A stretch of 47,650 nucleotides of DNA from Deltaproteobacteria bacterium (GTDB lineage Bacteria > Myxococcota > XYA12-FULL-58-9 > JABJBS01): the NCBI GenBank assembly GCA_018668695.1, contig JABJBS010000215.1:1-47650 (forward strand), written 5' to 3'. Below, piece by piece: positions 15,905-45,888 of this stretch (positions are counted from its first letter, which is position 1; each line of letters opens with the position of its first letter). The notes beneath the pieces are model-generated. The model searched no databases and was not told the DNA's origin. It saw nothing but the letters and a program-made list of their open reading frames with translations. A program made the position numbers and the translations under genes.

Positions 15905-18325
15905 TTAACCGGCCGCTTCAGTGGCTGGGGTATTGCTTTGGGCCGGCTCTTCTTTTGGCTCCGCTTTGGTGTCTTCCTTCTTTTTCTCTTCTTCGGGCTT
16001 CTCTTTTGCTTTCTGCATTGAGTTTTTACCCGGCTTGGTCTTCTTGAGCTTGAAGGTCTTCGGAATCACACGCGGCGGCCAATGGTTGTTGGTCAGGTCG
16101 GCATCTGCGGTTTCTTGTAGAGGATCCAGCGACAGACTTTTAATCTTATCTTGAGTGACGAAAAGCTTGGAGACTTTCTTGGAGTCACGCCGCCAGATTT
16201 CGGCCGGGATGCGATGGATTGCCTTCTTACCGTTCTCGTATTCGATTTCTACAACCAGTGGCATCACCAGGCCGCCATGGTTGTGGAAGTCTACCACATA
16301 ATAATTTCGCTGACTCTTGAGGAGATCACGCTCGTGTGGGTCCAGCTTCTCGAGCTTGTCTTTGTAAGCTTTCTCGTCTTGCCAAGTTACCGCGAACTCA
16401 TCGTAGCTATTATAAAAGTCGGCGAGCTCGGGGTATTGGTCGAGACGCGTTTTTTGGCCTTTTTCGATACCAGCGTAGATGGTGGCTGGATTGTCGCGGA
16501 GCTTGCGTGCTTTGGCTTTTGGCTTTTCAATTTTTGGATTGGCTGTATCGAGTTCATAGAGTGTCACATCACCAATGGAGATGTCGGTATGATCAGTGCT
16601 GTAGAACCAACCGCGCCAAAACCAGTCTAAATCCATGCCTGAGGCATCTTCCATGGTGCGAAAGAAATCAGCGGGCATCGGACGCTTGAATTTCCAGCGA
16701 TTGGCATATTCCTTAAATGCAAAGTCGAAAAGCTCTCGGCCCATGACGGTGTCCCGAAGCACGGTTAGGGCTGCTGCCGGTTTACCATAAGCATTTGCGC
16801 CAAATCGTAGGAGGGATTCCGAGTTGGTCATGATGGGAACTTGGTAGTCGCTCTTCATGTAATTAATCATGTTGCGAGGCAGAGCTTTTTTACGCGGATA
16901 GTTTTCTTCCCAGGAACGCTCTGCGATTGTTTGCACGAATGTGTTGATACCTTCATCCATCCAAGTCCATTGGCGTTCGTCTGAATTCACAATCATCGGA
17001 AAGTAGAAATGGCCCACCTCGTGGATGATGACGCCGATGAGCCCATACTTGGAGTGTCTCCACTCGCCAGCTTCACGCGGGATATCGAAATAGGTTCCAT
17101 CTTCCATAGGGCGCGGACCGTTGAAGCAAATCATTGGATATTCCATGCCGCCAACCGGACCATTCACCGAAATAGCTGTGGGGTAGGGATAGTCGAAGGT
17201 CATGCGTGAATACGAGTCGATGGTATGCAGTACTGCCTGGGTTGAATATTTACTCCAAAGAGGCTCGGCTTCATTCGGGTAAAAAGACATGCCCATAATG
17301 ATATTGCCATTTTGGTTGTAGCCCATGGCATCCCAAATAAATTTCCGCGATGAGGCGAAAGCAAAGTCGCGAACGTTCTTTGCCTTGAAACGCCAAGTTT
17401 TTGCCTTCTTTGCTGGCTCCTTCTCGGCAGCCGCTGCTTCTTCGGGGGTCACGATATACACGGGAGAATCGGCACGGCGTGCCTCGTCTAAGCGTTTACG
17501 CTGCGCTCTGGTTAGTACTGAACTTGCGTTGGCGAGCTCACCGGTAGCTGCAACGATGTGGTCCCCTGGAACCGTAATCGAGACATCGAAGTCTCCAAAT
17601 TCCAGGGTGAACTCTCCGCGTCCTACAAACTGCTTATGGTGCCAGCCGTTGACGTCGGTATAGGCCGCCATACGCGGATACCAATGAGCGATTTCGTAGA
17701 TATAGTTTTTGTCTTTTTCGAAATATTCATAGCCGGTGCGTCCCCAAATGACTTTGGCGTTGTTGATATTGTAATCCCAAGCGATGGAGAACTCGATGGA
17801 GCGGCCAGGGCGAAGCGGGCGCGGCAAATCGATACGCATCATTGTATCAACAATCGTAAACTTCAGCGCATCGCCGTCATCGTCGAGAACCTTTTGAATT
17901 TTATAACCGCCGTCGTAAGTTTCTCGGGCAAGGTAGTAATCGAGGCGTTTGTAGGAGAACTCTTCAAACCCAGGAGCGGTTTGGGTGAGGGAGCTTGTTG
18001 AGTCGTGCTCGAAGATGTTTTGGTCAAGCTGGACCCAAAGATACTTGAGCGTATCGGGACTCTTGTTGGTGTAAGTAATATCTGCCTCGCCCATGAGTCG
18101 TTGATTGACGTCGTCGAGTGTGGCGCGGATGTTGTAGTCGGCCCGTTGTTGCCAATATTCCGCACCCGGCGCGCCCGATGCTCGGCGGGCTTCATCGGGT
18201 GTTGGGAGGATTTCTTCGAGCTGCCTAAACTTATCTTCGGCGATGGAGCGGCCTGCGGCGAACACCACCGAGCCTTGAAAGATACAAAGGCTCAGGGCAA
18301 CGAATCGTATAAAAACAGAGTTCAT
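15905..18325 (-). CDS. Secreted M1-family metallopeptidase
   Basis: 806 residues with an N-terminal signal peptide (about 22 residues, ending near VFAAG). Zinc site HEVGH (H435, E436, H439) with E458 exactly 18 residues later, as in gluzincins of family M1. The exopeptidase motif is GGMEY instead of the usual GAMEN, as in several M1 branches from environmental bacteria. The C-terminal about 50 residues are Lys/Glu/Pro-rich and probably disordered. The protein should act in the periplasm or outside the cell on peptides. The ATG at 18325 is preferred to an in-frame TTG two codons upstream. It is divergent from pepN, with 212 bases between them. Confidence 0.87.
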   Translation of the reverse strand: MNSVFIRFVALSLCIFQGSVVFAAGRSIAEDKFRQLEEILPTPDEARRASGAPGAEYWQQRADYNIRATLDDVNQRLMGEADITYTNKSPDTLKYLWVQLDQNIFEHDSTSSLTQTAPGFEEFSYKRLDYYLARETYDGGYKIQKVLDDDGDALKFTIVDTMMRIDLPRPLRPGRSIEFSIAWDYNINNAKVIWGRTGYEYFEKDKNYIYEIAHWYPRMAAYTDVNGWHHKQFVGRGEFTLEFGDFDVSITVPGDHIVAATGELANASSVLTRAQRKRLDEARRADSPVYIVTPEEAAAAEKEPAKKAKTWRFKAKNVRDFAFASSRKFIWDAMGYNQNGNIIMGMSFYPNEAEPLWSKYSTQAVLHTIDSYSRMTFDYPYPTAISVNGPVGGMEYPMICFNGPRPMEDGTYFDIPREAGEWRHSKYGLIGVIIHEVGHFYFPMIVNSDERQWTWMDEGINTFVQTIAERSWEENYPRKKALPRNMINYMKSDYQVPIMTNSESLLRFGANAYGKPAAALTVLRDTVMGRELFDFAFKEYANRWKFKRPMPADFFRTMEDASGMDLDWFWRGWFYSTDHTDISIGDVTLYELDTANPKIEKPKAKARKLRDNPATIYAGIEKGQKTRLDQYPELADFYNSYDEFAVTWQDEKAYKDKLEKLDPHERDLLKSQRNYYVVDFHNHGGLVMPLVVEIEYENGKKAIHRIPAEIWRRDSKKVSKLFVTQDKIKSLSLDPLQETADADLTNNHWPPRVIPKTFKLKKTKPGKNSMQKAKEKPEEEKKKEDTKAEPKEEPAQSNTPATEAAG

Positions 18326-18537
18326 GAACAAAATCTCTATTGTTTGGGGAAACTAGGCAGGATGTGGATACCGTCTGAACTCCATCTATACAAGCGTTGT
18401 CGAACGAATTAAACGCTTCTTTATGACGCACCGTGTTGTCCCCTTTTTAGAGAGTCCATCTGGTCATCTTGGATTGCCCGTGATACCCCCGCTGCCGATT
18501 ACGCATTGCTGGAAACCCCCATATTTAGGAGCTACCT

Positions 18538-21177
18538 GTGAAAACCGACACTCCCCAAACGATTTTCCTGAAGGATTACACCGAACCCAATTACTGGATC
18601 GATAATGTCGATTTGAGAATTGAGCTTGGAGAAGATGAAACGTTGGTTCATTCCACACTTTCACTTCGTCGCAATGCGAATAGGCCAGCGGATGCAGCTT
18701 TGGTTTTAGATGGCCAAGACATGGAGCTTCGCTCTATCGCTATCGACGGCACCGACCTTGCGGCAGACGATTACGCGGTCGCGGCTGAAACCTTGAACAT
18801 CAACAAGACGCCAAACGTATTTCAGTTGAGCACGACTGTTGCTCTTAAGCCACAGGAGAACACAGCGCTTGAAGGTCTCTATAAGGCCAGCGGTATATTT
18901 TGCACTCAGTGTGAAGCAGAAGGCTTTCGTAAGATTACGTATTACCTAGACCGTCCGGATGTGATGGCCGATTTCACCACAACGATTGTTGGCGATAAGA
19001 AGCTCTACCCAGTTCTATTGTCCAACGGTAACCCAGTTGAACGGGGCGACCTTGATGGTGGCAAGCATTTCGTCAAGTGGGTCGACCCATTTAAGAAGCC
19101 CGCATACCTCTTCGCGGTTGTTGCAGGTGACCTGAAGCACATTGAAGATAAGTACACCACAACCAGCGGTAGAGAAGTGCTCTTACAGATCTTCGTAGAG
19201 CCTGAGAACATTGATAAGTGTGACCACGCCATGCTTGCTCTGAAGCAATCTATGAAGTGGGACGAGGATGTATTCGGTTTAGAATATGACCTAGATATCT
19301 ACATGATTGTTGCTGTGAACGACTTCAACATGGGAGCAATGGAAAACAAGGGACTCAACGTCTTCAACTCGAAGTATGTTTTGGCTCGTAAAGATACGGC
19401 CACCGATACTGACTTTGATGGCATCCAAGGCGTCATTGGCCATGAGTATTTCCACAACTGGTCGGGCAACCGCGTAACTTGCCGAGATTGGTTTCAGCTT
19501 AGCCTCAAGGAAGGCTTGACGGTATTTCGAGACCAGGAATTCTCTGCAGATCTCAATAGCCGCGCTGTAAAGCGTATTCAGGATGTGAAGTTGCTTCGCA
19601 CCCATCAGTTTGCGGAAGATGCAAGCCCGATGAGTCACCCGATTCGCCCTGAAGCATTCATCGAAATCAACAACTTCTACACCCGAACGGTTTACGAAAA
19701 AGGCGCGGAAGTGGTGCGCATGTACCATACGCTTCTCGGTGCAGGTGGTTTTCGTAAGGGCATGGACCTTTATTGGGAACGCCATGATGGCCAAGCGGTT
19801 ACCTGTGATGATTTTGTTTCCGCGATGCAAGATGCCAATGGCGCAGACTTAACTCAGTTTAAGCGCTGGTACAGCCAGTCGGGAACGCCACGTTTGAAGG
19901 CGTCGATGGAATATGATGCGGCGGGCGAAACAGCCACTCTGCACTTTGAGCAAAGTTGTCCGCCAACGCCTGGTCAGGAAACCAAGGAAGCTTATGTAAT
20001 TCCTGTGAAGATGGGATTACTTGGCGCAGACGGCGCAGACATGGCCGTGAGCTTGGAAGCAGGCGGCGAAGCTTTGGCCGAGCGTGTGATTGAAGTTCGT
20101 GAGACCAAGCAGTCGGTGACCTTTCATGGTGTGAAAGAGAAACCAGTGCCGTCGTTATTGCGTGGGTTTTCTGCTCCCGTAATTCTTGATTTTGCATACG
20201 ATGACGCAGACCTAGCGTTCTTGCTCGCCAATGACTCGGATTCTTTCAGTCGCTGGGAAGCAGGCCAAACACTCGGCATTCGCGTAATCATGGGCATGAT
20301 TGAAGATCTACGTGCTGGTAAAGAGCCCCAAATCCCTGAATTGGTAGTCGAAGCTTTCCGTAGACTTCTTACGACAGAGGGGCTTGATAAGGCGCTGCTG
20401 GCAGAGTCATTGACGTTGCCGTCGGAAGCTTATCTCGCAGAGAAAATGGAAGTCGTGGATGTGGATAATATCCATGCTGCTCGTAAGTTACTCAAGGGAC
20501 ACCTTGCAACTTCGTTGCGCGCTGAGTTCGAGACCGTCTTTAACGCCAACCAGGAAGAAGCTGAGTATACTTTCGATGCGGAAAGTGTCGGCCGTCGTGA
20601 TTTAAAGAACACAACATTAAGCTATTTGATGGAGCTTGATGATGCTGCAATCACCACGCGCTGTTTCAATCAGTATGAGGCAGCTCATAATATGACTGAC
20701 GTGATGGCTGCTCTTGGTAATCTTGCAGACACGGATACTGAAGAGCGAACAAATGCTTTTGCTGCATTTTATGACAAGTGGCAAGACGATGCGCTCGTGA
20801 CCAATAAGTGGTTTTCACTGCAGGCGATGGCTGACCGTGAAACAGTGCTTGATGAAGTCAAAGCACTCACAAAGCATCCAGCATTCAGCATGACCAACCC
20901 GAACCGTTTACGGTCTTTGATTGGTGTGTTTTGTATGGGTAACCGAGTCCACTTCCATGCATTGGACGGATCGGGCTATAGCTTCTTGGGTGATACGATT
21001 TTAGCGCTCAATGACATCAACCCACAGGTTGCGGCTCGTTTGATGAGAATCTTGGCCAATTGGCGACGTTTCGATGAGAAGCGCCAAGCATTGATTAAGG
21101 TGCAGCTAGAGCGAATTGTTGCTCACGATGGATTGTCTAAGGATGTATTCGAGGTTGCCTCGAAGAGCCTTGCGTAA
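18538..21177 (+). CDS. pepN: Aminopeptidase N
   Basis: 879 residues, close to E. coli PepN (870). GAMEN is at about 266-270, HEYFH at 302-306 with the third zinc ligand E325, and the Tyr of FYTRTVYEKGAEVVRM stabilises the intermediate. It removes N-terminal residues from peptides in the cytoplasm; no signal peptide is present. The start is GTG with AGGAG six bases ahead. It lies next to, and divergent from, a secreted M1 enzyme, but the two are from different branches, so this is not a recent duplication. Transcription should end at the hairpin at about 21256-21301. Confidence 0.95.
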   Translation: MKTDTPQTIFLKDYTEPNYWIDNVDLRIELGEDETLVHSTLSLRRNANRPADAALVLDGQDMELRSIAIDGTDLAADDYAVAAETLNINKTPNVFQLSTTVALKPQENTALEGLYKASGIFCTQCEAEGFRKITYYLDRPDVMADFTTTIVGDKKLYPVLLSNGNPVERGDLDGGKHFVKWVDPFKKPAYLFAVVAGDLKHIEDKYTTTSGREVLLQIFVEPENIDKCDHAMLALKQSMKWDEDVFGLEYDLDIYMIVAVNDFNMGAMENKGLNVFNSKYVLARKDTATDTDFDGIQGVIGHEYFHNWSGNRVTCRDWFQLSLKEGLTVFRDQEFSADLNSRAVKRIQDVKLLRTHQFAEDASPMSHPIRPEAFIEINNFYTRTVYEKGAEVVRMYHTLLGAGGFRKGMDLYWERHDGQAVTCDDFVSAMQDANGADLTQFKRWYSQSGTPRLKASMEYDAAGETATLHFEQSCPPTPGQETKEAYVIPVKMGLLGADGADMAVSLEAGGEALAERVIEVRETKQSVTFHGVKEKPVPSLLRGFSAPVILDFAYDDADLAFLLANDSDSFSRWEAGQTLGIRVIMGMIEDLRAGKEPQIPELVVEAFRRLLTTEGLDKALLAESLTLPSEAYLAEKMEVVDVDNIHAARKLLKGHLATSLRAEFETVFNANQEEAEYTFDAESVGRRDLKNTTLSYLMELDDAAITTRCFNQYEAAHNMTDVMAALGNLADTDTEERTNAFAAFYDKWQDDALVTNKWFSLQAMADRETVLDEVKALTKHPAFSMTNPNRLRSLIGVFCMGNRVHFHALDGSGYSFLGDTILALNDINPQVAARLMRILANWRRFDEKRQALIKVQLERIVAHDGLSKDVFEVASKSLA

Positions 21178-21301: not shown

Positions 21302-23689
21302 TTAGAACCCAAGATAGATTGGGTTAGAGAATGAGTAGGAGCTGGTGTAGCCGCTGAAGCTGGCAGATTTAATACTGCTGCTTGAGCCAAAGGCCCCGGA
21401 ACCAAAGTTCATCGAGATATTGAATCCAGACAAGCTACCGAGGCTAAAGTTGGTCACGGTGCCTGAGTTGTTGGTCACACTGAGCGTAGGGCTAGAGAAC
21501 AAGCTGAAGTTTGTATAGCTACTGCTCAGAGCAACGATTCCGTTACTTGCAAACATACCGCAGTCACCACCGCCGCAGCCACCGTTTCCGCCTTCAGGTT
21601 GCGGCAATGTCCAAGGAGCAGCTGTATAATTATATGCTTGGTCCTCTGGGCACATTTCTGTCTCAATATAATCTATGCCATCCACATTCACTTCCGAGTA
21701 AAGGCTTGTATGCCCTGCACCACAAACAGGATCCGTTGAAGCTGAGCTGGTCATACTTAACGAAACATAGCCATGGTGTTGTAACGCAGTCGCGAGACTG
21801 GCACCGGTAAACGCTGTCTTCTCTGCTGTTGAGTCGGGAATAGGGTCAGCCTCTTTGGCCCATGAGCCACAGCTCATCGCTGAGTTGTATTTCTGCATAG
21901 CCTTACAGACTGTAATACGCTTGCTCGCTCGGCAAATTTTTGAGTGGCAAAATTCAGCCTTCACAGTATTCGTAACGGACGAAGAACCAACGGTGGTTGT
22001 TTCTTCGATGGTTTCGCCAGAGCTGTAAAGGTCTCTCATGACACGTTGAAGTGGGTAGCTCTGATTGTATCGCCACATAGCCGCAGCGGCTGTTGCGACC
22101 ACGGCAGTTCCGACGGAAGTTCCCGTCTGAGCTGTGATGTAGATACTGTTATCGGCTCCAAGATATGAATCGAGGCTGTAGCCAGCTCCGGAAAGCCAGT
22201 TGTCGAGTTGTTCTCTGTGATCCTTTAATGAAACATGGTCCGCATAAGCGGCCAAATGGGCGCGGGCGCCTGCGCGTTGATTCCCAATATCGGAACCTGT
22301 TCTCGTGACTCCACTGACGGCATAAAGCATCGGCTGCGGACGCCAAGTGGAGAGAGATGCGGTATCGATTCCGAAGGAATCGTTATTGTTGTCAGATGCG
22401 GTAGCAGAACCGGCGGGTCCCTCAGCATAGTAGGTACACTCAGCCTCGGTCGGCGCGTTGATTTGCTCCCATTCGGCGGGAAGTAAAGGAGCGTCGGTGT
22501 GGTCTTGTCCACCGGACTTGTTACCACTGGCGGCCAGCATCAAAACACCTTTACACCGTGCGGTACGAATAGCTGTGAAAGCGGCAGCAACGTCTGCTGG
22601 CCATACGCTCTCGATGTATGCTTTGCGGTCGGAGATACTGAGCCCGTTGAATGTTCGGATAGCAACAGGGTCACTTTCGAAGCCGCCGCCATAGGCAGGC
22701 ATCCATCCAAGAGACATGTTGAGAATAAGGCGCTGATTCGGGTTGGGTGAATGGTAGGCTTCCTTATCACGCTGCCATGCGCTTACTTCGCGGTTGATTG
22801 CTTGGGCGAGCCAAGAGATGCTTCCAAATTCACCGCCATTGTGAGTGTCTTCAACAATCATGCTTAAAGCGGTAGCGCTATCGACTATCTCTTCAGCTTC
22901 CACAACGTAGGGGAGTGCCAACTGAGTGGTGATGTCGGCGTGGCAATTTGAGAGTCCATTAGGGCATAGGTGCTTTTCTGCAATTCGGGCCATCAAAAGG
23001 CCGTGGTCGGAGTTGCGGTGGTTGGTTCTATTGCGTGACGCATTAGAGATTGAGTCAGGACCTTCGGTTCGACTGGTGTCTAGAAAAGAAAGTCGAACAG
23101 GCAACGTGCCGTCGTATTGAAAGTCGGCGGCTGAGCTTACCCAACCAGAGTGTTCGAGGAACTCGTCTTCGAAAAGTGGTGCCATGATTTCAGAAAATTG
23201 AGACTTCGGATTAGCTGAGCCATAAGCGCCAACTGCAAAACGGTCCGGATTGATTTGCTTCAGACAGTTTGGGCCACTGTTCGCGTTGCAGAGTAACTGC
23301 TCCAAGTCCACAGGGATATCGCGGCCTGGATTAAATGCGACGGTGTACTGTGTCTCGTAGAGACAGTACTGCTGAAGAGCCCACTCACGTGGTTGTTGAA
23401 AAACGTCATCGTTTCCTTGCTGAGTCGCGAAAAGGGGAGTGACGGTGAATGCAGGGTTCCCGCCAGGAACGTTCGGGGTGGGGCATGCCTGTGCGTCTTG
23501 ATTTTTGATAGCGATGAACCGCTTACGCGACTTGGATTCGTCGAGCCAAGTTGCGGCTGTAGCGCTCAACGCACTTCCATGTGGAGAGACTGCTTCAACG
23601 GTAATGGCTTCGTATTCTGAACCGCATGCGGCCATCAAGAGTGAGGCGGCTAGGGTTGTATATTTCATTGATTTCATTTGGGGCTTCAT
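21302..23689 (-). CDS. Subtilisin-like (S8) serine protease, lipoprotein
   Basis: 795 residues. Signal with lipobox ending A-A-C22. The S8 catalytic triad is visible: D204 (LSFLDTS), H229 (NSDHGLLMA), S525 (GTSVGTAVV), plus oxyanion Asn390 (AASGN). The surroundings deviate from classic subtilases (DHG instead of HGT), so it is a divergent branch. The last about 100 residues are Gly/Ser/Phe-rich (GGNGGCGGGDCG, then repeated F/S/T strands) and end in YLGF, which looks like a beta-rich surface tail. The start is set by AAGGAA nine bases ahead of the ATG at 23689. The gene follows the CHAT gene by 34 bases and is the last of the four-gene locus; the two proteases are very likely cotranscribed. 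Confidence 0.85.
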   Translation of the reverse strand: MKPQMKSMKYTTLAASLLMAACGSEYEAITVEAVSPHGSALSATAATWLDESKSRKRFIAIKNQDAQACPTPNVPGGNPAFTVTPLFATQQGNDDVFQQPREWALQQYCLYETQYTVAFNPGRDIPVDLEQLLCNANSGPNCLKQINPDRFAVGAYGSANPKSQFSEIMAPLFEDEFLEHSGWVSSAADFQYDGTLPVRLSFLDTSRTEGPDSISNASRNRTNHRNSDHGLLMARIAEKHLCPNGLSNCHADITTQLALPYVVEAEEIVDSATALSMIVEDTHNGGEFGSISWLAQAINREVSAWQRDKEAYHSPNPNQRLILNMSLGWMPAYGGGFESDPVAIRTFNGLSISDRKAYIESVWPADVAAAFTAIRTARCKGVLMLAASGNKSGGQDHTDAPLLPAEWEQINAPTEAECTYYAEGPAGSATASDNNNDSFGIDTASLSTWRPQPMLYAVSGVTRTGSDIGNQRAGARAHLAAYADHVSLKDHREQLDNWLSGAGYSLDSYLGADNSIYITAQTGTSVGTAVVATAAAAMWRYNQSYPLQRVMRDLYSSGETIEETTTVGSSSVTNTVKAEFCHSKICRASKRITVCKAMQKYNSAMSCGSWAKEADPIPDSTAEKTAFTGASLATALQHHGYVSLSMTSSASTDPVCGAGHTSLYSEVNVDGIDYIETEMCPEDQAYNYTAAPWTLPQPEGGNGGCGGGDCGMFASNGIVALSSSYTNFSLFSSPTLSVTNNSGTVTNFSLGSLSGFNISMNFGSGAFGSSSSIKSASFSGYTSSYSFSNPIYLGF

Positions 23690-23723
23690 TGCTGAAGATT
23701 CCTTTCTTAGGGGGTAGTACGAC

Positions 23724-26597
23724 TTAATTGGGTGTAATGAGTCTAAAGGTTGACCAGTCGGCGTCTGGGTACTGCTGAGATGCCATGATTTGAGCGTCTT
23801 GCAGCGCCGCTGCAAAATCTCCACTGGTTTGATACGATTTGTAGAGCTGGGTCGTGATATACCGGCTGAGCTCATCTTTGACTGGGCGTGTGGAGGCGAT
23901 AACTACGTTGCTCCCGGCAAGGGCGAATGCTTGAGCCAGCCCTAGGCTCTCGAGTGGAAAAGCTTTATCCGTTTTAGCCGATTCACAGGCAGAGAGAATG
24001 ACAGATTGGGGGGCTTGGGGAAGCACCAGTATATCGCCAATGTTTAGTTGTGTATTGTCTGCTAAAAGCAAAGCGCTGTCGCTGATGACATTTTTTCTGA
24101 ATTGACCGTGACCCGCATAGTGAAAGAGGTGCACACCTTTCATGGCGCTTTTAACTGTGTTGAGGTCAGCGGACTCCCCAGACACCTGATTGACTTGAGC
24201 CAGAAGGTCTTGTTTTAGGATCGTTGAAACAGCTAGCGCTTCTTGTCGAGCAAGAGGTAAGTTGCCAGCCGGGTCGGACACGATCAGTGCTTTGAGAGGC
24301 TCATTGGACTGTGATGATACGCGACTGCGCAAGCTTAGGGAGTACGCGACTTGTGTAAACTGGATGAGCGGTTTGCTGTCGATAGGAAGGCGGTGAAAAT
24401 CGATCTCTCTTAGTTTTCCCCATGGCTGGAAGTAGGCCTTGTTGGCTTGCAGAAGAGTTTCCTTAAATGGGCCTAAGAGTATCTTAGAGAGAGCCTGGAG
24501 GCTCTGTGTTTCAGGTAGATTTCCCAACAATCTGAACGAGATAGATTGCTGGGTTTCTAAAAATCCGACCCAGGATTCTTTTAGCTTAAAGTATGTTAAG
24601 ACGATTTCATTCTCGCCTGGTTTAAACGAATGTGCTTGTGATGTTGATTCAGTGCGCTGCATATCCAACAGTGCAAAGGTTGTATCAAGATTTTGTCTAA
24701 CTTTTCGTTCTAGAGACTCTGCTTTATTCAGGGCTTGTCTGAGTTCATATTCAGGTAGCTGCCATAGGTCCGTTTTGAGATTCTGTAACTCGGTTCGCGT
24801 CTGCTTGTATTGCGCCATGGCTGTTTGCCACTGAGCCATCTTGCCATCTCCAAGGTTCGCGGTTCGCGAGTTCCATTGAAGGTTTTGTAGAAGTTGACTC
24901 CGGGCACGCCGGATGACCTTGAGCGCTTCTTCTACTTTTCCAGATTGAAGCAGAGACGCGACATAGGCTTGGGTGGCCTGTTGGCGATGCGCTAGGAAGC
25001 TTTCTCGCCCGGCATGGATGGGAGCCTGTAAGCTCTCGCGTTCAACATGAGCTTGAGCTTGCTCCCACAAATTTTGAGCCTTTTGATGCTGCCCGAGAGA
25101 TGCATGAGCTGCTGCTGCACCTACCAGCCCTCGCCAGTGAAGGTAGGCATGGGGAGAATTTTTACTGAGTTGACGAAGTTTACTAAAGTGTTGAAGAGCT
25201 AACTGCGGTTGGTCTTGATTTAAATACAGATCCGCGTGAGTTTGTTCAAACCACATTTGATAGTAAGCTGAGACCTTTCCAGTTGCCTCCGCCTTGGCGA
25301 GGTAACGCCTTGCTTCTTTGAACTCTTTTTTGGCCAGAAACATCAGCGAAAGGTTGAGGAGACTATTGGTATCTTCTTGTTTATCGGCATGACAGATCGT
25401 CGTATCTTGGGAGATTTGGAGAGCGTTCTCAAAGTGCGCCGTGGGGTCGGGCAACTCTTTGGCGGGGGTACCCATCGTATCGCTATCGCTTTGACTGTCG
25501 AGCTTATTGAGCAACTGGGCCCAACCAAGGCTATTGAGATTTTCCGCATCTTCACAAGTCGGATTTTCTAGAACGATTCTCGACACTCGGTCTTCAAGGA
25601 CTTTGGCTGCTTGTGCGAATTGGTGAAGATTCATGAGTGCACAGCTGTAAATGTGTGCGAGGTAGTCAGCATTTCGTTGATTGCCAATTTTTTTTGCAAG
25701 CGCCATTGCGCCTTGCGAGAAGTTGAGTGCACCGCGATGATTGCTAGACTTCTCGGCGATGAGAGATTGCGACCAGCGATAAAAATGCTGGCTATCGTAG
25801 TGGTTGGGTAACAAGCCCTGCATTTTGTTGACGTGAAGGCTCGCCTTATCGAATTGCATCCCCATTCGGTAGACTGAGGTCCATGCGTAAGTGGTGGTGT
25901 CCCGAACAGCCGCACCGAGACTCCCGGCTTTGATATGTGCTTCGTAAGCCTGCTCTAATTTTTCGATGGCCTCTGGCGCATTCTTGAGGCTGAGTTCGGA
26001 TCGCCCCAATAAGCTCAAGGCCTCACCAAGCTCCCGAGGCGTAAAGTCGGCAAGTTTTGACTCTAATAGCATCTTAACTTGAGCATGCTTCTTGTTTTTT
26101 CTAAGCTTGGCGGCTTCGAGTAATACAGGGTGCCGAGGTTCGTAAGGTTGTACTTCAAGGCTCCAGGAGCGCGCTTGAGGTTGAGATACGTCAAACGTGA
26201 ATGAGCCTGCTTGCTCCGGCGCAACCAATTGGAATCGTAATCCGTCCTCGGTTTTGATGAATTCGGGATTGAACTCTTTGTTGCCACGTTCGGAGTTGAA
26301 TTGAATGGTTGGTGCTTCGTGTCCCGCAACCCAGAAGGTCAGCTTGTGTTCGGTATCCTCGGTGAACTCAGGCAGTTCACAAGTGGGGCCCTCATAAACC
26401 GTGTGGCAACCGCTGTAATAGGCTTCGAGTGATTCAGGATCTTGCTCGTTCATGACGGTGAACGGATCACAGGCGGAAATGGCAAAACCCATGCAAAGAA
26501 GCCCAGTTACGCTGGCGCGGAGGAGGGTAGCACGTACTTTTGGTGCCCCAACTATTTCCCGGGATGCGTACGCACCCCTGTTTTCATGGCTCAACAT
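23724..26597 (-). CDS. TPR-CHAT domain protease, predicted lipoprotein
   Basis: 957 residues. The N-terminus has a basic start, a hydrophobic stretch and a lipobox I-S-A-C43 followed by D44. A short beta-rich region (about 60-150) precedes a long array of TPR-like helices (about 160-620). The C-terminal CHAT domain (caspase/separase-like clan, about 700-957) has both catalytic residues: H830 in HYAGHG and C871 in ILSACES. CHAT proteases typically cut protein partners when their TPR part senses a signal. The ATG at 26597 is chosen because AGGAAAA precedes it; an in-frame TTG six codons upstream has no such site. It is in a codirectional set with a sigma factor, a membrane anti-sigma-like protein and a subtilase. 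A CRP-like palindrome lies 64 bases ahead. Confidence 0.85.
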   Translation of the reverse strand: MLSHENRGAYASREIVGAPKVRATLLRASVTGLLCMGFAISACDPFTVMNEQDPESLEAYYSGCHTVYEGPTCELPEFTEDTEHKLTFWVAGHEAPTIQFNSERGNKEFNPEFIKTEDGLRFQLVAPEQAGSFTFDVSQPQARSWSLEVQPYEPRHPVLLEAAKLRKNKKHAQVKMLLESKLADFTPRELGEALSLLGRSELSLKNAPEAIEKLEQAYEAHIKAGSLGAAVRDTTTYAWTSVYRMGMQFDKASLHVNKMQGLLPNHYDSQHFYRWSQSLIAEKSSNHRGALNFSQGAMALAKKIGNQRNADYLAHIYSCALMNLHQFAQAAKVLEDRVSRIVLENPTCEDAENLNSLGWAQLLNKLDSQSDSDTMGTPAKELPDPTAHFENALQISQDTTICHADKQEDTNSLLNLSLMFLAKKEFKEARRYLAKAEATGKVSAYYQMWFEQTHADLYLNQDQPQLALQHFSKLRQLSKNSPHAYLHWRGLVGAAAAHASLGQHQKAQNLWEQAQAHVERESLQAPIHAGRESFLAHRQQATQAYVASLLQSGKVEEALKVIRRARSQLLQNLQWNSRTANLGDGKMAQWQTAMAQYKQTRTELQNLKTDLWQLPEYELRQALNKAESLERKVRQNLDTTFALLDMQRTESTSQAHSFKPGENEIVLTYFKLKESWVGFLETQQSISFRLLGNLPETQSLQALSKILLGPFKETLLQANKAYFQPWGKLREIDFHRLPIDSKPLIQFTQVAYSLSLRSRVSSQSNEPLKALIVSDPAGNLPLARQEALAVSTILKQDLLAQVNQVSGESADLNTVKSAMKGVHLFHYAGHGQFRKNVISDSALLLADNTQLNIGDILVLPQAPQSVILSACESAKTDKAFPLESLGLAQAFALAGSNVVIASTRPVKDELSRYITTQLYKSYQTSGDFAAALQDAQIMASQQYPDADWSTFRLITPN

Positions 26598-26660
26598 GTG
26601 AATTTTCCTGTTCAAATCCCAATCGAAGGTGGGGAACTATCCGATACCCGCCTACATCTC

Positions 26661-26676
26661 TGTGATCGGCATCACA
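26661..26676. promoter_or_regulatory. CRP-type palindrome ahead of the CHAT gene
   Basis: TGTGATCGGCATCACA matches the CRP consensus TGTGA-N6-TCACA exactly. It lies between the anti-sigma-like gene and the CHAT gene, centred 71 bases upstream of the CHAT start. On the minus strand a weak -10 candidate, GATAGT (26636-26641), would put the site near -40, a class II position. It can also form a 6-bp hairpin with a CGGC loop. Confidence 0.5.
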
Positions 26677-26757
26677 CAGCTGAGTTTAATTTTGAGATAA
26701 TGTACTTTTTGATCGGCTGATCGATCCGCTCAGGTTTCAGCCAGAAGTTGATGTGCT

Positions 26758-27579
26758 CTATTTCACCAGGATTTCAGTCGAGAGCATTTGCCAATGCTCG
26801 CCGTGGGTTCGAATCCCATCTTGGGCGGCCTGACGGATAGTCGCTTCATCGGGGGTATCCTCGAATCGAGACAAAACCGTGAGCACTCGGTAGGGCTGAT
26901 CTTTTAAGGGAAATGCGAGACCGGCTTTTCCACTGAGGCGAACAGCTCCGCTTGAGCTTATCTGAGTCTTTACTTGAAGAACGGAGAACTCGGATTCAGA
27001 TGCCAGGTAGACCCGGACCATAAAGTCATCGTCTCCCTGAGAACTCGGTCTGAGAAGCAGTTGGACCTGGGAGCCTTGGCTAAACGTGGGTATATCTTTA
27101 GAGGCCTTGTTCTCTCCGCGCATGGCGGCATCGCCCTGGCTTACCTCTAAGTTGTAGCCTCCCAGCTTACTTTCGGTACCTGGGTAGAAGACGGCGACCA
27201 TAGCCAGGGCCGCGGCGCCGGCAAGAGCTGGTCCGAACAATGGAGTTTCGAATTTAAAGAGTGTCTGCAGCCAATTGAGTGGCGAGGGCTTGACCTCGGG
27301 GCTGGGCTCTTTCGATGGCTCTGGATCAGCTGCGCCAACCATGGCCATGAGGCTGTCGGTGAGACTGTCTTCGAAATCATCTCCCAGTGGATTAAACGCC
27401 TTCATCGCTGTGGCGACACTTTCGTCTTCGGTAGCCATCGCTTCCAATTTGTCGAGATCTGCTTCGGAGATCGTACCTTCGGCAAGCTCGACTAGTAGAT
27501 CTTCTTCCGTAAGAGCCTGTTTCTCCAGCTCTTCTTGGGTCACCGCTTTGAATTCCTTCATGAATTGATCATCAGGCAT
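26758..27579 (-). CDS. Single-pass membrane protein, putative anti-sigma factor
   Basis: 273 residues. The acidic helical N-terminal part (about 1-115) should be cytoplasmic. One hydrophobic span (FGPALAGAAALAMVAVFYPG, about 120-140) is followed by a beta-rich C-terminal domain (QVQLLLRPSS, FMVRVYLASE, VRLSGKAGLAFPLKD) that would lie in the periplasm. It starts 12 bases after the sigma factor gene, with AAAGGAG before the ATG. The position and topology are those of membrane anti-sigma factors, but there is no zinc-finger HxxxCxxC motif, so the role is inferred from context. The 3' end overlaps, in antisense, a tRNA-like sequence (26782-26827). Confidence 0.6.
   Translation of the reverse strand: MPDDQFMKEFKAVTQEELEKQALTEEDLLVELAEGTISEADLDKLEAMATEDESVATAMKAFNPLGDDFEDSLTDSLMAMVGAADPEPSKEPSPEVKPSPLNWLQTLFKFETPLFGPALAGAAALAMVAVFYPGTESKLGGYNLEVSQGDAAMRGENKASKDIPTFSQGSQVQLLLRPSSQGDDDFMVRVYLASESEFSVLQVKTQISSSGAVRLSGKAGLAFPLKDQPYRVLTVLSRFEDTPDEATIRQAAQDGIRTHGEHWQMLSTEILVK
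26782..26827 (+). other. tRNA 3'-half-like sequence inside the anti-sigma-like gene
   Basis: On the plus strand, a 7-bp hairpin GAGCATT/AATGCTC is followed by GTGGG-TTCGAAT-CCCAT (a canonical T-arm) and CTTGGGC (an acceptor-3'-like stretch, as in many tRNA-Leu). No matching 5' acceptor GCCCAAG, D-arm or normal anticodon loop is found upstream, so this is not a complete tRNA. It is either an old tRNA fragment taken into the gene, or coincidence. Confidence 0.3.
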
Positions 27580-27591
27580 GGGTGTTCTCCT

Positions 27592-28509
27592 TTAAGACCT
27601 TTGCTCAGAGCTTGAGGTTTCCGAGAGGACGGATTGATATTCTCGTTTCAGATGCTTCGCCAGCCGGCTGCGCCAGGCGTAGATTGCAGAGTCGGACATT
27701 CCAGTTTGAGTTGCCACATCTGAGACATCAAGCTCTTGGATAATCACCATGTTAAAGAGTTGACGGCCCAAGGGGCTAAGTTGCTCATCCATGCGGTGAA
27801 AGACTTGTCTGATTAAATCCCGGCTGATCGTGGCACTCTCAAGAGTTTCGTCTTGCTCAGTCATAAACTCGAAGTCGGTATCTAGCGTCGGGTCTTCTGT
27901 GAAAGGGTTACGTTTAGTCGTTCGTAAAATTGAAAGCGCCTGGCGATGAGCCACAAGCCCGGCAAAGTTGCGCAGGGAAAGCCCTTTCGTGGGTTCCCAG
28001 TTTCGCAGCACGCGCGCGTCATTGGCGAAAAGAGCAGCAAAGACCTCTTGGGTCATATCGGCAACTTCTTCCCGAACTCGGTCGTGACCAAAGTTACGAG
28101 ATCCGACCATCAGGCATTTTGCGACTCTGGCTTGGATGACAGGCGTGAGATGCTTCACCAGTTCCCGCATGGCAGGGCGATTGCCATCGAGAGCTTGATT
28201 GAGTGTCTCGTCATTCCATTCCATGGCTCGCGCGTGGTTGCCTTTCACCAAATGTTTCGCACCCGAAACACCTGTTTCAACGCTCGTTTTCTTGAGGGAG
28301 GACGCTACAACTGTTTCCCGCTTGGTTATCGACGCATCCATTGCACTGGAAGACCATGAACCGCAAGGTCTGCTCCATTGTTTTTTAGCTTGGTGCCGTC
28401 TGAGAACCGTCTGGGACGGCACATATTGAGATCTAAGGCCCGTGAAGGAGATATCTGTGTAACTGGCTCTGGGGTCCATCGGGGGTGCTGTTGAGAGTAG
28501 GGTATTCAT
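27592..28509 (-). CDS. Sigma-70-family RNA polymerase sigma factor with N-terminal extension
   Basis: 305 residues from the preferred start. The sigma core begins near residue 96: region 2 (about 105-190) contains EEVADMTQEVFAALF and LRNFAGLVAHRQALSILR, and region 4 (about 235-290) has the helix-turn-helix DVSDVATQTGMSDSAIYAWRSRLAKHL. Regions 1 and 3 are absent, as in ECF-type factors. GAGGAA precedes two adjacent ATGs; the second (28509) has the better 7-base spacing. This adds a Ser/Thr-rich, low-homology tail of about 95 residues. An internal ATG at 28224 would give a normal-length factor but has no clear ribosome binding site. It should direct RNA polymerase to a special promoter set, held off by the next gene's product. 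Confidence 0.8.
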   Translation of the reverse strand: MNTLLSTAPPMDPRASYTDISFTGLRSQYVPSQTVLRRHQAKKQWSRPCGSWSSSAMDASITKRETVVASSLKKTSVETGVSGAKHLVKGNHARAMEWNDETLNQALDGNRPAMRELVKHLTPVIQARVAKCLMVGSRNFGHDRVREEVADMTQEVFAALFANDARVLRNWEPTKGLSLRNFAGLVAHRQALSILRTTKRNPFTEDPTLDTDFEFMTEQDETLESATISRDLIRQVFHRMDEQLSPLGRQLFNMVIIQELDVSDVATQTGMSDSAIYAWRSRLAKHLKREYQSVLSETSSSEQRS

Positions 28510-28872: not shown

Positions 28873-30708
28873 ATGACTAAGGCGAGCGTCCATTTTGTCA
28901 TTTCCATGAACCGTCCAGCTTCTCACATGTTTAACGTGACGATGACCGTTCAAGAGCCCAACACCGAAGAGCAGTTGTTTTCTTTACCGGCATGGATTCC
29001 TGGTAGCTATTTGTTGCGGGAATTCGCGAAGAGCTTAGGACCGATCAGTGCCCGTTTGGAAGCTGGTCCGATAGAGGTGCATAAAGTTGACCGAAACACT
29101 TGGGCCGTGCGCGGTGCCAAAGGTCCGCTTACCCTGCAGTACGATGTTTACGCGTGGGACATGTCGGTTCGGTCGGCTCACCTGGATCAGACCCATGGTT
29201 ACTACAATGGAACCAGCGTGTGTTTAATGACCCACGGGATGGAAAACGAGTCGCATTCTGTCGAAATCATCGAACCGAGCGATGAGAAATGTGTCAACTG
29301 GCGAGTTGCTACCACTTTAAAGCGTGTGACGGGTGAAGAGGGGGGCTTTGGTTTGTTTGAGTCGCCTGACTACGATGACCTCGTTGATCATCCGGTTGAA
29401 ATGGGTGATTTCACTTTGGCAACTTTTGAAGCAGCAGGGGTTCCCCATCACATCGCGATAACCGGTCGTCACAGCACCGATTGCGAGCGCTTATGTGCAG
29501 ACCTTAAAGAGATTTGTGAAACACACATCAATATGTTCGGCGAGTTGCCAAAGATGGATTGTTACCTTTTTCAGGTGATGGCTGTTGGTAATGCTTACGG
29601 TGGACTTGAGCACAGAAGCTCTACATCTTTGGTTTGCAAACGCGACGACCTACCTCAAAAGGGAGTCGAAGAGGTCACCGAAGGCTATCGGCAATTCCTC
29701 GGGCTTTGTAGTCATGAGTATTTCCACACCTGGAATGTGAAGCGGATTAAGCCAGCGATGTTTCTTCCTTACGATCTGAGTAAAGAGTCGCATACTACGC
29801 TTCTCTGGGCCTTTGAGGGCATAACTTCGTATTTCGACGACCTAGGACTCATCCGCAGTGGTATGGTCGATACTGAATCCTACCTGGAGCTACTGGGGCG
29901 GGGTGCGACGCGTGTGTATCGAAGCTATGGTAGGCATAAGCAGTCTTTGTTCGACTCCAGCTTTGACGCCTGGACAAAGTTTTATCGTCAAGATGAGAAT
30001 GCGCCCAATGCGATTGTTAGCTACTACACCAAGGGCGCGATTGTTGCGCTGGCGCTCGACATGAAGATTCGTCACGTGACTCAAGATGAGAAAAGCTTGG
30101 ATGACGTGATGCGTGTGTTGTGGGCACGGCATGGAAAGCCTTTGGTGGGTGTACCTGAAGATGGTGTTGAGAAAATCGTACAAGAGGTTGCCGGTGAAGA
30201 TTTCACCGACTTCTTCGACTCAGCTTTACGAGGCACTGACGACATCGAACTTAATCCGCTGCTTGAACCTCTTGGTGTCCGATTCTGCGTTCGCCCTCAA
30301 GAAAATTCTGCCGACAAGGGCGGAAAGCCTTCGAAGAAAAAAGTGACCGAGCAGGGATGTATTGGAGCCCGGACGGGTGCCGGTGGTTTTGGTGCAAAAG
30401 TTCTCAACGTGTTCGATGGCGCCGCCGCTGAAGACGCTGGCCTCGCAGCCGGTGATGTTGTCGTCGCGCTGGATGGTCTTCGGGTCACGGGAACCGATTT
30501 GGAAGACCGTGTCGCCGCACTTAAGGTAGGGGAAGAAGTATCAGTGCACGCTTTTCGCCGGGATGAACTCGTCACCACGACTCTTAAGGTAGGTTCACCG
30601 GTAGCCGATACCGTTTATTTTGAGCTGATTGAGGATGCCTCTGAAGCAGTCGTGGCACGGCGTAACGCCTGGCTTGGCCTTGGTGCTAGCGAAGGTTTAA
30701 ACGCTTAA
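28873..30708 (+). CDS. M61-family aminopeptidase with PDZ domain
   Basis: 611 residues. The N-terminal beta domain (about 1-180) is followed by the M61 catalytic domain with YGGLEHRSST and zinc site HEYFH (H281, E282, H285) with downstream Glu E315 in WAFEGITSYFDD, then a PDZ domain at about 510-590 (VLNVFDGAAAEDAGLAAGD...). Characterised members are glycyl aminopeptidases. No signal peptide is evident, so it is probably cytoplasmic. It is divergent from the sigma-factor gene and overlaps the convergent amidohydrolase gene by 23 bases at its 3' end. Confidence 0.9.
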   Translation: MTKASVHFVISMNRPASHMFNVTMTVQEPNTEEQLFSLPAWIPGSYLLREFAKSLGPISARLEAGPIEVHKVDRNTWAVRGAKGPLTLQYDVYAWDMSVRSAHLDQTHGYYNGTSVCLMTHGMENESHSVEIIEPSDEKCVNWRVATTLKRVTGEEGGFGLFESPDYDDLVDHPVEMGDFTLATFEAAGVPHHIAITGRHSTDCERLCADLKEICETHINMFGELPKMDCYLFQVMAVGNAYGGLEHRSSTSLVCKRDDLPQKGVEEVTEGYRQFLGLCSHEYFHTWNVKRIKPAMFLPYDLSKESHTTLLWAFEGITSYFDDLGLIRSGMVDTESYLELLGRGATRVYRSYGRHKQSLFDSSFDAWTKFYRQDENAPNAIVSYYTKGAIVALALDMKIRHVTQDEKSLDDVMRVLWARHGKPLVGVPEDGVEKIVQEVAGEDFTDFFDSALRGTDDIELNPLLEPLGVRFCVRPQENSADKGGKPSKKKVTEQGCIGARTGAGGFGAKVLNVFDGAAAEDAGLAAGDVVVALDGLRVTGTDLEDRVAALKVGEEVSVHAFRRDELVTTTLKVGSPVADTVYFELIEDASEAVVARRNAWLGLGASEGLNA

Positions 30709-34138: not shown

Positions 34139-35413
34139 TTACTTCTGTCCGTAGGTCCAGTCAGGACTGCTGGCGACCAGCTCACAGATATCATTCAAGT
34201 TGACCGGCTTACTGAAGAGATAGCCCTGCCCATATTGGCAATCGAGAGCATCAAGGCTTTCCATTTGCTCCGGAGTTTCAATACCTTCAGCAACCACGCT
34301 CAAATGAAGACCACGCGCCAAGCCGGTAATGGCTCGAACAACTTTCATGGCTCGTTCATTTTCGCTCATGGCGGTGACGAAGCATCTGTCGATTTTCAGA
34401 TTGTCGATTGCAAATTGGTAGAGATAACCAAGCGAGGAAAAGCCGGTACCAAAATCATCCAAGGCGATGGTGATACCCATTTCTTTACAATGGGCAATCC
34501 ACTCCACGGCCACTTCCGGACTGTCCATGAAAAGGCTCTCAGTGATTTCGAGCTTAATCTGGTGGGGCGGTGCTTGAGTACTTTGAAGCGTTTGGCGAAT
34601 GGTATCGATGTAGCCGGGAACGCCGAGTTGTCTTCCGGAAACATTGACGCTCACGAAGGGACGAACGGTACGCCCATTGGTATTCCCTAGATTGCACGCT
34701 TTTTCCAACTCCGGCAGGTCTTTGCAGGCACGCTCGAGGACATAGTCTCCCAGTGGGATAATCAGCCCAGTCTTTTCGGCAAGATCGATGAAGTGAAAAG
34801 GCGCGAGCAGGCCGCGTTTTGGGTGCTCCCAGCGTACAAGTGCCTCAAAGCCGGCGGTCGTTCGTGTTTCTAGGTCAACGATGGGCTGGTAGAAGCAAAC
34901 AAACTCCCCCCTATCGATACCGTTTTTAAGATCTGCCTCCAGGCGAATCGCCTCGATTGCCGCCTCAGCGGGCTTACTCATGGCAGATTCAAGTTGAACA
35001 CCACTTTGGTTTAAATCGGGCTGCATAGCAGGCGCAATGACTTTTCCGGGTTGGCTGGTTCTTTCGAGATTGGCTCGGTAACGGGTGAGGATAACCTTGA
35101 GCAGGAGATTTACAACAGAGTCACCCTGGTTGAGGTGCTCGTTGATCTGTTTTCTTGAGATTGAAACAAGATTGGTTTTCTCAAGGGCCACGACGGTGGC
35201 TGTTCTTGGCTGATCATCAATGACAGCCATCTCACCAAAGAGACCGCCTTCACCAATTCGAGTTAATACTGTACGCTGACCGTTTTGAATCATAGAGATT
35301 TCAACAGCCCCACTTTCTACAATGTAGGCTGAATCCCCAGCATCTCCCTCACGAAAGATGATGTCTCCAGGCTCGAGCGTGCGCGAATAGATGTGTGATC
35401 CGGTGTCGACCAT
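34139..35413 (-). CDS. Cyclic-nucleotide-binding/EAL-domain c-di-GMP phosphodiesterase
   Basis: 424 residues. The N-terminal cNMP-binding domain (about 5-115) keeps the phosphate-binding cassette FGEMAVIDDQPRTATVVA with E61 and R70. A linker of about 45 residues leads to an EAL domain (about 165-415) with the motifs E190-A-L, ESLF, DDFGTG and EGIET, i.e. an apparently complete active site. It should hydrolyse c-di-GMP in the cytoplasm, possibly gated by cAMP or cGMP. The only ribosome-binding-like sequence, GGGGAAA, is about 15 bases from the ATG. It is upstream of and codirectional with lgt, but 115 bases separate them. Confidence 0.88.
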   Translation of the reverse strand: MVDTGSHIYSRTLEPGDIIFREGDAGDSAYIVESGAVEISMIQNGQRTVLTRIGEGGLFGEMAVIDDQPRTATVVALEKTNLVSISRKQINEHLNQGDSVVNLLLKVILTRYRANLERTSQPGKVIAPAMQPDLNQSGVQLESAMSKPAEAAIEAIRLEADLKNGIDRGEFVCFYQPIVDLETRTTAGFEALVRWEHPKRGLLAPFHFIDLAEKTGLIIPLGDYVLERACKDLPELEKACNLGNTNGRTVRPFVSVNVSGRQLGVPGYIDTIRQTLQSTQAPPHQIKLEITESLFMDSPEVAVEWIAHCKEMGITIALDDFGTGFSSLGYLYQFAIDNLKIDRCFVTAMSENERAMKVVRAITGLARGLHLSVVAEGIETPEQMESLDALDCQYGQGYLFSKPVNLNDICELVASSPDWTYGQK

Positions 35414-43545: not shown

Positions 43546-45888
43546 GTGGAAAATACGCCTGATAACAAATCTGAAACTGACGAGAGCCAGGTCACTCAAG
43601 GACGCAATTTTATACGTGCGATGATTGAGCGCGATCTGGAAACTGCTAAATACAACGGCAAGGTCACGACGCGATTTCCACCCGAGCCCAACGGTTATCT
43701 TCATATTGGTCATGCAAAATCGATTTGTTTGAACTTTGGCTTGGCTCAAAAATACAATGGCCATTGCCATCTGCGTTTCGACGACACGAACCCCGTGAAA
43801 GAAGACACGGAGTACGTTGATTCAATTCAGGCAGATGTTCGTTGGTTAGGCTTCGATTGGGGTGAGAACCTCTTCTTTGCCTCAGACTATTTCGAGAAAA
43901 TGTATGACTACGCTCTTCAGCTGATCAAAGACGGTAAGGCTTATGTCTGCAGTTTGAAGGAAGATGAGATTCGCGAATACCGCGGGACTGTCAAAGAAGA
44001 TGGGAAGCATAGTCCCTATCGAAGCCGAAGTGCCGAAGAGAACCTTTCGCTTTTTGAGCGAATGCGTGCAGGCGAGTTCAAAGATGGCGAGCACGTTCTA
44101 CGAGCCAAAGGTGATATGGCGGCAGCGAATATGAAATTACGCGACCCGCTGCTTTATCGTATTCGACATGATCACCATCATCGCACGGGCGACAAATGGT
44201 GCATCTATCCCATGTACGATTATGCCCATTGCCTCTCTGACTCTATTGAGGGCATCACGCATTCTATTTGCACCCTTGAATTTGAAAACAATCGTGATCT
44301 CTACAATTGGTTCCTCAACGAGGTATCTGCTCCGCAGCCAAGGCCCGAGCAAACTGAATTTGCTCGCCTTAGTTTGACATACACTGTGATGAGCAAGCGC
44401 AAACTTCTCGAGTTGGTTCAGGATAATCTCGTATCGGGATGGGATGACCCTCGGATGCCGACCATCGCAGGCATGCGTCGTAGAGGTTATACCGCTGAAG
44501 CGCTTCAAGACTTTTGCGAACGAATCGGTGTAGCGAAGGCCAATAGTTTGGTTGATGTAGCCCAGCTTGAATACAGCATTCGTGACGACTTAAACCACCG
44601 TTCACCCAGAGTTATGTGCGTGCTGGATCCCATTAAAGTTGTGATTGAAAATTATCCTGAAGACAAAGTTGAAATGCTTGAGGCGCCGTACTGGCCACAC
44701 GATATTCCCAAAGAGGGAACACGTGAGGTGCCACTTACGCGGGAAGTATTTATCGAGCGTGATGACTTCATGGAGAATCCTCCGAAGAAGTTTTATCGGT
44801 TATCTCCGGGCAACGAGGTACGGCTGCGCTATAGCTATGTGATTCGTTGTAACGAAGTCATTAAGAACGATGCTGGTGAAGTTGTTGAGATTCGATGCAG
44901 TTACGACCCTGATACTCTGGGCAAAAATCCAGAAGGTAGAAAAGTTCGGGGCGCCATTCATTGGGTTTCTGCTACGGAAGCCATTGAGGCTGAGGTTCGT
45001 CTCTACGACAGACTCTTCAGTATCGAGCAGCCCGATGCTTACGATGGTGATTTTAAAGACACGATGAACGCCAACTCACTTTCTGTTCAAAAAGGTTTTG
45101 TTGAGCCGAGTGTTAAAAATACTGCCTCAGGTGACCGGTTCCAGTTTGAGCGCCAGGGCTATTTCTATCGTGACTTAGATTCAAGCGATGAAAAACTCAT
45201 TTTTAACCGAACAGTTGCTTTGAAAGATTCATGGGCACGTAAGCAGGATACGCCGGCGCAGAAGGTGCCTGAAGCGAAAGCTCAGAAGGCTCAGAAAAAG
45301 AGTAAACCTAAAGAGCAAGCGAAGGCACCCGTTGAGAAACTTCGCTCTCCAGAAGACGAAGCTCTGATCAAACGGTTGGTGGAGGCTTATGGAATCAGCG
45401 ATGCAGATGCCGAAACTTTTGCGGGCCATTGTGAACTCAGAGAGTTTTTCGAAGATGCGATGAAGCATCACGACAATGGCCGGGCCATTGCGAATTGGAT
45501 CATCAACGATGTGATGCGGGAACTCAAAGATGGTTCTTTGAGTGAACTCTTGTTTGGTGCTGCTGAAGTTGCAGAATTGGTTAAACTAATCGATGCCGGT
45601 GATATCTCTGGGAAGATTGCTAAAACGGTTTTCGCCAGCATGACCAACGAGGGTGGCTCACCTGAGCAAATCGTTGCCGATAAAGGCTTAAAGCAGCTCA
45701 CAGATCCTGCGGATGTACAGCCCGTCGTTGATCGTATTCTGGCGGCCAACGAGGAAGCAGTGGCGCAGTACCGAGGTGGTAAGACCAATCGGATGGGTTT
45801 CTTCGTCGGACAGGTCATCAAAGAGACCGGAGGCCGTGCGAATCCACAATTGGTTAACCAATTGCTCAAAAAGTCCCTGGAAGGCTAA
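43546..45888 (+). CDS. glnS: Glutaminyl-tRNA synthetase with C-terminal YqeY-like domain
   Basis: 780 residues. A class I core (about 30-560) has HIGH at 53-56 and MSKRK at 282-286, and the Gln-specific [37 protein letters not shown] and anticodon-binding beta-barrels. A Lys/Ala-rich linker (about 565-600) leads to a C-terminal GatB/YqeY-like domain (about 600-780, ending with [15 protein letters not shown]). It charges tRNA-Gln directly. The tail domain is known in GlnRS of Deinococcus and a few other groups, where it helps tRNA binding. The start is GTG with AGAGG ahead. A single gene. Confidence 0.95.

Follow-up and report, generated by a model that had tools for sequence, protein, structure and literature searches.

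Four codirectional genes for a sigma factor, a membrane protein and two proteases

The window analysed here is a whole stretch of 47,650 nucleotides (contig JABJBS010000215.1, assembly GCA_018668695.1, from a Deltaproteobacteria bacterium placed in Myxococcota), in which four codirectional minus-strand genes encode, in this order, a sigma factor of the extracytoplasmic function (ECF) type, a putative membrane anti-sigma factor, an exported caspase-like TPR-CHAT protease and a secreted subtilase lipoprotein. The intergenic gaps are 12 bases between the sigma factor and membrane protein genes, 160 bases from there to the CHAT gene and 34 bases between the CHAT and subtilase genes; re-examination reproduced exactly the genes, coordinates and gaps given in a preliminary description of this DNA. 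The source genome is a 5.87 Mb draft (98.6% complete) in which the locus is single-copy, with one further CHAT gene at a contig end. All features located below lie on the minus strand.

The sigma factor gene (27592..28509) comprises 306 codons as drawn. Its product scored 52.1 bits (E value 5.5e-14) with the sigma70-ECF model TIGR02937, for which the cut-off is 42.9, and the Pfam models for regions 2 and 4 both scored under their cut-offs. With sigma2 and sigma4 regions, no sigma3 and a family model over its cut-off, it is classified as an ECF sigma factor. It was aligned with 13 homologues, and since homologues align only from the equivalent of M96, the gene as drawn from 28509 probably extends too far upstream, and the true start would be near 28224.

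The second gene (26758..27579) encodes a protein of 273 amino acids with no family match in Pfam or NCBIfam. Its AlphaFold2 model (pLDDT 80.8) consists of N-terminal helices, one transmembrane helix predicted at residues 116–131 (27187..27234) from hydropathy and the secondary structure of the model, and a C-terminal Ig-like beta-sandwich, for which the fold search returned generic Ig folds only. The protein thus adjoins a sigma factor and combines a helical cytoplasmic domain, a single transmembrane segment and an outer domain, the features expected of a membrane anti-sigma factor. A relative at locus L043 carries HxxxCxxC, as zinc anti-sigma domains do, and scores 19.7 bits with zf-HC2, under the 22.2 cut-off. 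We consider that the membrane protein very probably holds the neighbouring ECF sigma factor inactive, with sequestration as the putative means.

The third gene (23724..26597) encodes a protein that matches the CHAT family PF12770 with 112 bits against a cut-off of 24. The AlphaFold2 model (pLDDT 86.9, pTM 0.85) and the sequence together give its layout: a lipoprotein signal with a lipobox at Cys43 (AISAC-D, 26469..26471), a beta-sandwich at 59–150, a TPR superhelix at 157–645 and a caspase-like region at 660–957. The catalytic dyad of His830 (24108..24110) and Cys871 (23985..23987) is intact in 30/30 relatives, which share 22–30% identity with the window protein, and Cys64 and Cys73 of the N-terminal domain are invariant among homologues. 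No homology was found between this N-terminal sandwich and the Ig domain of the anti-sigma factor (hhalign probability 0.2%).

The fourth gene (21302..23689) encodes a subtilase that passes the Peptidase_S8 cut-off narrowly (PF00082, 23.7 bits against 21.8, E value 3.6e-5); the mycosin-like model TIGR03921 gave 4.7e-7, far under its cut-off. A family profile was built for this protein, and the triad of Asp204 (23078..23080), His229 (23003..23005) and Ser525 in a GTS motif (22115..22117) is intact in all 25 homologues, which together with PF00082 places it in the S8 family. A lipobox at Cys22 is followed by an N-terminal domain with conserved Cys69 and Cys109, the S8 domain and a beta-rich C-terminal tail. 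Lipoprotein-type signal sequences stand at the N-termini of both proteases of the window, a feature that the preliminary description did not mention, and signal peptides or lipoboxes, mostly of lipoprotein type, occur on most members of both families, with signal sequences comparable to that of the window CHAT protein in its relatives.

Conservation of the gene set

As the least biased survey of the gene set, starting from the sigma factor alone, 84,980 species genomes were scanned with the sigma factor alignment as a query. The pattern scan returned 51 independent named loci, which belong to Myxococcota, to Acidobacteriota or to unnamed bins, and the carriers include the cultured genera Pyxidicoccus, Sorangium and Polyangium. 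An anti-sigma gene adjoins the sigma gene in 47/51 loci, in the position that it has in the window, and a family CHAT gene was found in 33/51 and a family subtilase in 23/51; 19 loci keep the exact four-gene order on one strand. The commonest spacing of the sigma and anti-sigma genes among relatives is a 4-base overlap. Other loci have the same set in altered order: subtilase, sigma and anti-sigma with a convergent CHAT gene in L104 and L105, CHAT first in L054, and a divergent arrangement in L039 and L042.

An independent search was anchored on the subtilase, whose profile (E <= 1e-15) was run against 195 Myxococcota genomes. It hit 15 places in 11 of these genomes, and 14 of them adjoin another gene of the set: 13 lie beside a family CHAT gene and one, at the end of its contig, adjoins a sigma/anti-sigma pair. 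The remaining place (L074) is a short contig. Searches with the CHAT protein recovered full-length homologues in relatives at 23–31% identity; G005, a genome of the same order as the source, has an identical four-gene order, and the phylum search added members in five Myxococcaceae-like genomes, again in the order sigma, anti-sigma, CHAT, subtilase. The module was present in 2/297 genomes of an Acidobacteriota sample, and its distribution over myxobacteria and Acidobacteriota is patchy and scattered. Scanning named genomes with the single protein P0003 gave no match, the sequence being too diverged, and a plasmid search with the sigma factor found none.

The evolutionary distances of the four proteins correlate over 22 loci (r 0.58–0.82, p 0.001), a comparison made with no species tree, so that these values are inseparable from plain vertical descent. 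The strongest correlation, to which vertical descent may likewise contribute, links the anti-sigma factor with the CHAT protein (r 0.82). The preliminary description had proposed a relay among the four proteins and held that the idea would fail if the genes were scattered in relatives; they stay together across two phyla, even where their order is shuffled. The alternative that the genes are chance neighbours of unrelated function is refuted by the sigma- and subtilase-anchored searches, the distance correlation and the kept gene set, and we give it practically no credence. There is strong support for the four genes acting as a unit.

Several further arrangements were observed in these families. 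Two Myxococcota metagenome-assembled genomes (G023 and G029) each contain the module in several copies, with shuffled gene orders, and have many CHAT genes. Secreted proteins lacking a protease domain lie beside the CHAT gene in L110 (11551–12615), L122 (6252–7064), L086 (11098–11940) and L119 (6189–7064); the profile of the subtilase N-terminal Cys domain weakly matches those of L110 (E value 1e-4) and L122 (3e-3) and gave no match in L086 and L119, a hint that such proteins may represent the fourth component without its protease. On the short contig of L036 (G017:C51), a secreted 322-residue protein (3134–4102) that internally repeats a VRWVDL.CY-like pattern adjoins a family CHAT gene, and neither sigma factor nor subtilase lies on that contig.

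Fused relatives and comparison with known systems

In L116, from a Thermoanaerobaculia genome (JAUIJL010000002.1), a single open reading frame of 1159 amino acids joins the anti-sigma domain, a transmembrane segment, an Ig-like part, a sandwich of the CHAT family, TPRs and CHAT. L127, a paralogous locus in the same genome, has a like arrangement in 1201 amino acids. Both fusions sit between sigma and subtilase genes; no signal peptide was found at the junction in L116, nor an internal one in L127, and the L116 fusion had no match among Protein Data Bank sequences. An assembly artefact is unlikely because two paralogous loci carry the fusion. The fusion places CHAT on the periplasmic side, across the membrane from the sigma factor, where it acts as part of the anti-sigma factor. 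Together with the signal peptides and lipoboxes and the invariant Cys64 and Cys73, these natural fusions support the envelope location that had been suggested from the window alone. An apparent anti-sigma/CHAT fusion of 1190 amino acids in Pyxidicoccus-type genomes was rejected, as its first 270 residues come from an extension that is out of frame and the true anti-sigma factor is encoded in another frame.

The fusions bear on two alternatives. In the first, CHAT is a sensor or scaffold that binds the anti-sigma factor outside, and a change in conformation or the general proteases of the envelope release the sigma factor. A built-in sensor fits the fusion of CHAT and anti-sigma in L116, L127 and DdvA (described below), and the TPR part of the CHAT protein is larger than its protease part; however, retention of His830 and Cys871 in every relative compared, at such low identity, points to catalysis, and we hold this alternative to be doubtful. 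In the second, the proteases are outputs of the sigma factor, namely effectors secreted to serve in predation, defence or self-killing that are co-transcribed with their regulator and stand outside signal transduction. This agrees with the secretion of both proteases, with the predatory myxobacteria among the hosts and with a subtilase that is variable and often missing, but the covalent fusions put CHAT inside the regulator and CHAT co-varies best with the anti-sigma factor. The effector explanation is unlikely overall, although it may apply to the subtilase alone.

Foldseek searches with the CHAT model ranked at the top Csx29 (8eey, E value 1.3e-15) and the transmembrane anti-sigma factor DdvA (8rw5 and 8rot, 2.5e-15). 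DdvA is the cognate anti-sigma factor of DdvS, an ECF sigma factor of Myxococcus xanthus that is active once DdvA is inactivated, and its inducing signal was reported as unknown (PMC4374960). Its solved structures (PDB 8rot, 8rw5) are those of a transmembrane anti-sigma factor with a TPR-CHAT part. The module resembles DdvS/DdvA in having an ECF sigma factor under a transmembrane anti-sigma factor with TPR-CHAT, and L116 and L127 share the fused arrangement. In contrast to DdvA, the window family usually has separate anti-sigma and CHAT proteins, its CHAT protein is a lipoprotein, a subtilase is added, and the sequence match is confined to the CHAT region; anti-sigma and TPR-CHAT in one protein, the mark of the DdvA type, were seen only in L116 and L127 and not in the window.

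A Myxococcus CHAT protein (L051) was tested as a DdvA candidate and is not DdvA. In the Myxococcus-like loci L051 (4236–9075, G049) and L050 (7988–12860, G053), an ECF sigma factor, a transmembrane protein with an anti-sigma-like N-terminus, a small secreted protein and an exported TPR-CHAT protein (CHAT 206 bits) follow one another with divergent sequences, which suggests that sigma, anti-sigma and exported CHAT form a recurrent design. At L060 (6468–9729, G103), an exported CHAT protein scoring 248 bits with the family profile comes immediately after a distant sigma factor, and no anti-sigma gene separates the two.

In type III-E CRISPR loci, Csx29 cleaves Csx30, an inhibitor of the sigma factor (PMC10028731). 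Like the window locus, the Csx29/Csx30/CASP-sigma locus holds a TPR-CHAT protease with a sigma factor and an inhibitor, and the overall TPR-CHAT fold is shared. Csx29 differs in its binding to Cas7-11 in the cytoplasm and in its RNA trigger, whereas the lipoprotein-type signal and the topology of the fusions indicate that the window CHAT is exported; the sequences resemble each other in the CHAT core alone (E value about 0.002), and the relation of the module to Csx29 is by fold only. No CRISPR repeats were found within 20 kb of the locus and no RAMP-family protein was matched in the draft source genome, in line with the earlier remark that CRISPR components are missing; neither Cas7-11/RAMP with repeats nor a cytoplasmic protease, the features of type III-E CASP systems, is found here. 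These observations also count against an envelope-triggered switch for defence against phage or foreign elements, analogous to that of Csx29. The fold similarity, the patchy spread (11/195 Myxococcota and 2/297 Acidobacteriota genomes) and the several copies in some genomes are in keeping with a defence switch, but PADLOC returned nothing above noise and the window neighbours are housekeeping genes, and we regard it as quite improbable.

As presented in PMC8999054, which cites Huang 2015 and Casas-Pastor 2021, ECF54 sigma factors of Actinobacteria have carboxypeptidase, subtilase and CHAT genes in their context and no anti-sigma factor, and proteolytic regulation was proposed for them. The window shares with that description an ECF sigma factor that has CHAT and subtilase neighbours; carboxypeptidase neighbours belong to ECF54, whereas the module has a dedicated membrane anti-sigma factor in most loci and hosts in Myxococcota and Acidobacteriota, a comparison drawn from the published description. 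The module also resembles the RseA/DegS/RseP and RsiW systems (cited in PMC10028731), in that an ECF sigma factor would be freed when its membrane anti-sigma factor is cut on the outer side; the candidate trigger proteases of the module are CHAT and S8 enzymes in place of a PDZ-trypsin. Given the ECF54 context and an anti-sigma factor with TPR-CHAT in DdvA, the statement in the preliminary description that such a combination is not a described system was too strong. No description of the four-gene unit itself was found in the literature searched, which covered few subscription papers.

A proposed trans-envelope switch

We propose, with a probability of about one half, that the locus encodes a four-component trans-envelope signalling module in which destruction of the anti-sigma factor, triggered by CHAT or the subtilase, frees the sigma factor. 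Two parts of this model are well supported: that the N-terminal helical domain of the anti-sigma factor would hold the ECF sigma factor in the cytoplasm with the Ig-like domain outside, and that the TPR-CHAT protein, probably exported and lipid-anchored, would work at the external side of the anti-sigma factor, to which it is covalently fused in some relatives. The TPR superhelix may sense an envelope or extracellular signal and then switch on the CHAT dyad, much as the TPR part of Csx29 relays the binding of target RNA. CHAT would cleave the stalk of the anti-sigma factor directly or activate the secreted subtilase to cut it; the cleavage would start a stepwise destruction of the anti-sigma factor, and the freed sigma factor probably transcribes its own operon. 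We infer proteolysis by either enzyme, and cleavage of the membrane protein and contact between sigma and anti-sigma factors are predictions. The relay first suggested for this locus thus appears plausible and partly supported.

A more specific form, which we put forward tentatively, is a cascade of two proteases located beyond the inner membrane: the caspase-like enzyme would activate a subtilisin-like zymogen and relay an extracellular signal to transcription through a dedicated anti-sigma factor. Such a cascade would parallel the Csx29-Csx30-CASP-sigma switch at the envelope and belong to the design class of DdvA.

Several points weigh against the proposed module. The anti-sigma identity of the window protein is drawn from position, topology and distant relatives, with no Pfam match and a weak NCBIfam "anti-sigma factor" match in 1 of 29 family members. 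Where CHAT is fused to the anti-sigma factor, it cannot act as a free site-1 protease, and the Foldseek TM-scores on the query are modest (0.39 for Csx29 and 0.23 for DdvA). A dyad search upstream of the 51 sigma genes returned only GC-rich background and a sigma-70 promoter scan was under chance level, so no promoter motif indicating autoregulation was found. Cleavage, binding and expression in the module are all predicted. Finally, several CHAT-bearing loci have no family subtilase within reach (L080, L086, L088, L098, L102, L124), and the flanks retrieved around the sigma/anti-sigma pairs of L089, L095, L081, L097, L100 and L114 contain neither a CHAT nor a subtilase gene of these families. 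The sigma/anti-sigma pair therefore does not strictly depend on the proteases. Since a number of loci with CHAT lack a subtilase or have none within reach, the subtilase is likelier to be an amplifier, an activated zymogen or an effector than an obligatory trigger, and would form the more dispensable arm of the module. The genomes with pairs lacking CHAT nearby carry family CHAT genes elsewhere.

Bacterial caspase-like proteases have been discussed mostly as intracellular enzymes of defence and death; here one would belong permanently to a transcription switch that spans the envelope. The model unites Csx29/CASP-sigma, the anti-sigma factor DdvA and the ECF54 neighbourhoods in one testable design, with TPR-CHAT proteins as sensors of anti-sigma factors, and the window family, with separate CHAT and anti-sigma genes, should be easier to dissect than DdvA.

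Metallo-aminopeptidase genes flank the locus in the window, two of M1 type and one M61 glycyl aminopeptidase with a PDZ domain (15908–18331, 18538–21177 and 28873–30708); they were not seen as such at the G005 locus, whose neighbours have no detailed annotation. Elsewhere in the window, one protein combines a cyclic-nucleotide-binding domain with an EAL domain (34139–35413), and an enzyme of glutaminyl-tRNA-synthetase type carries a GatB/YqeY domain at its C-terminus (43546–45888).

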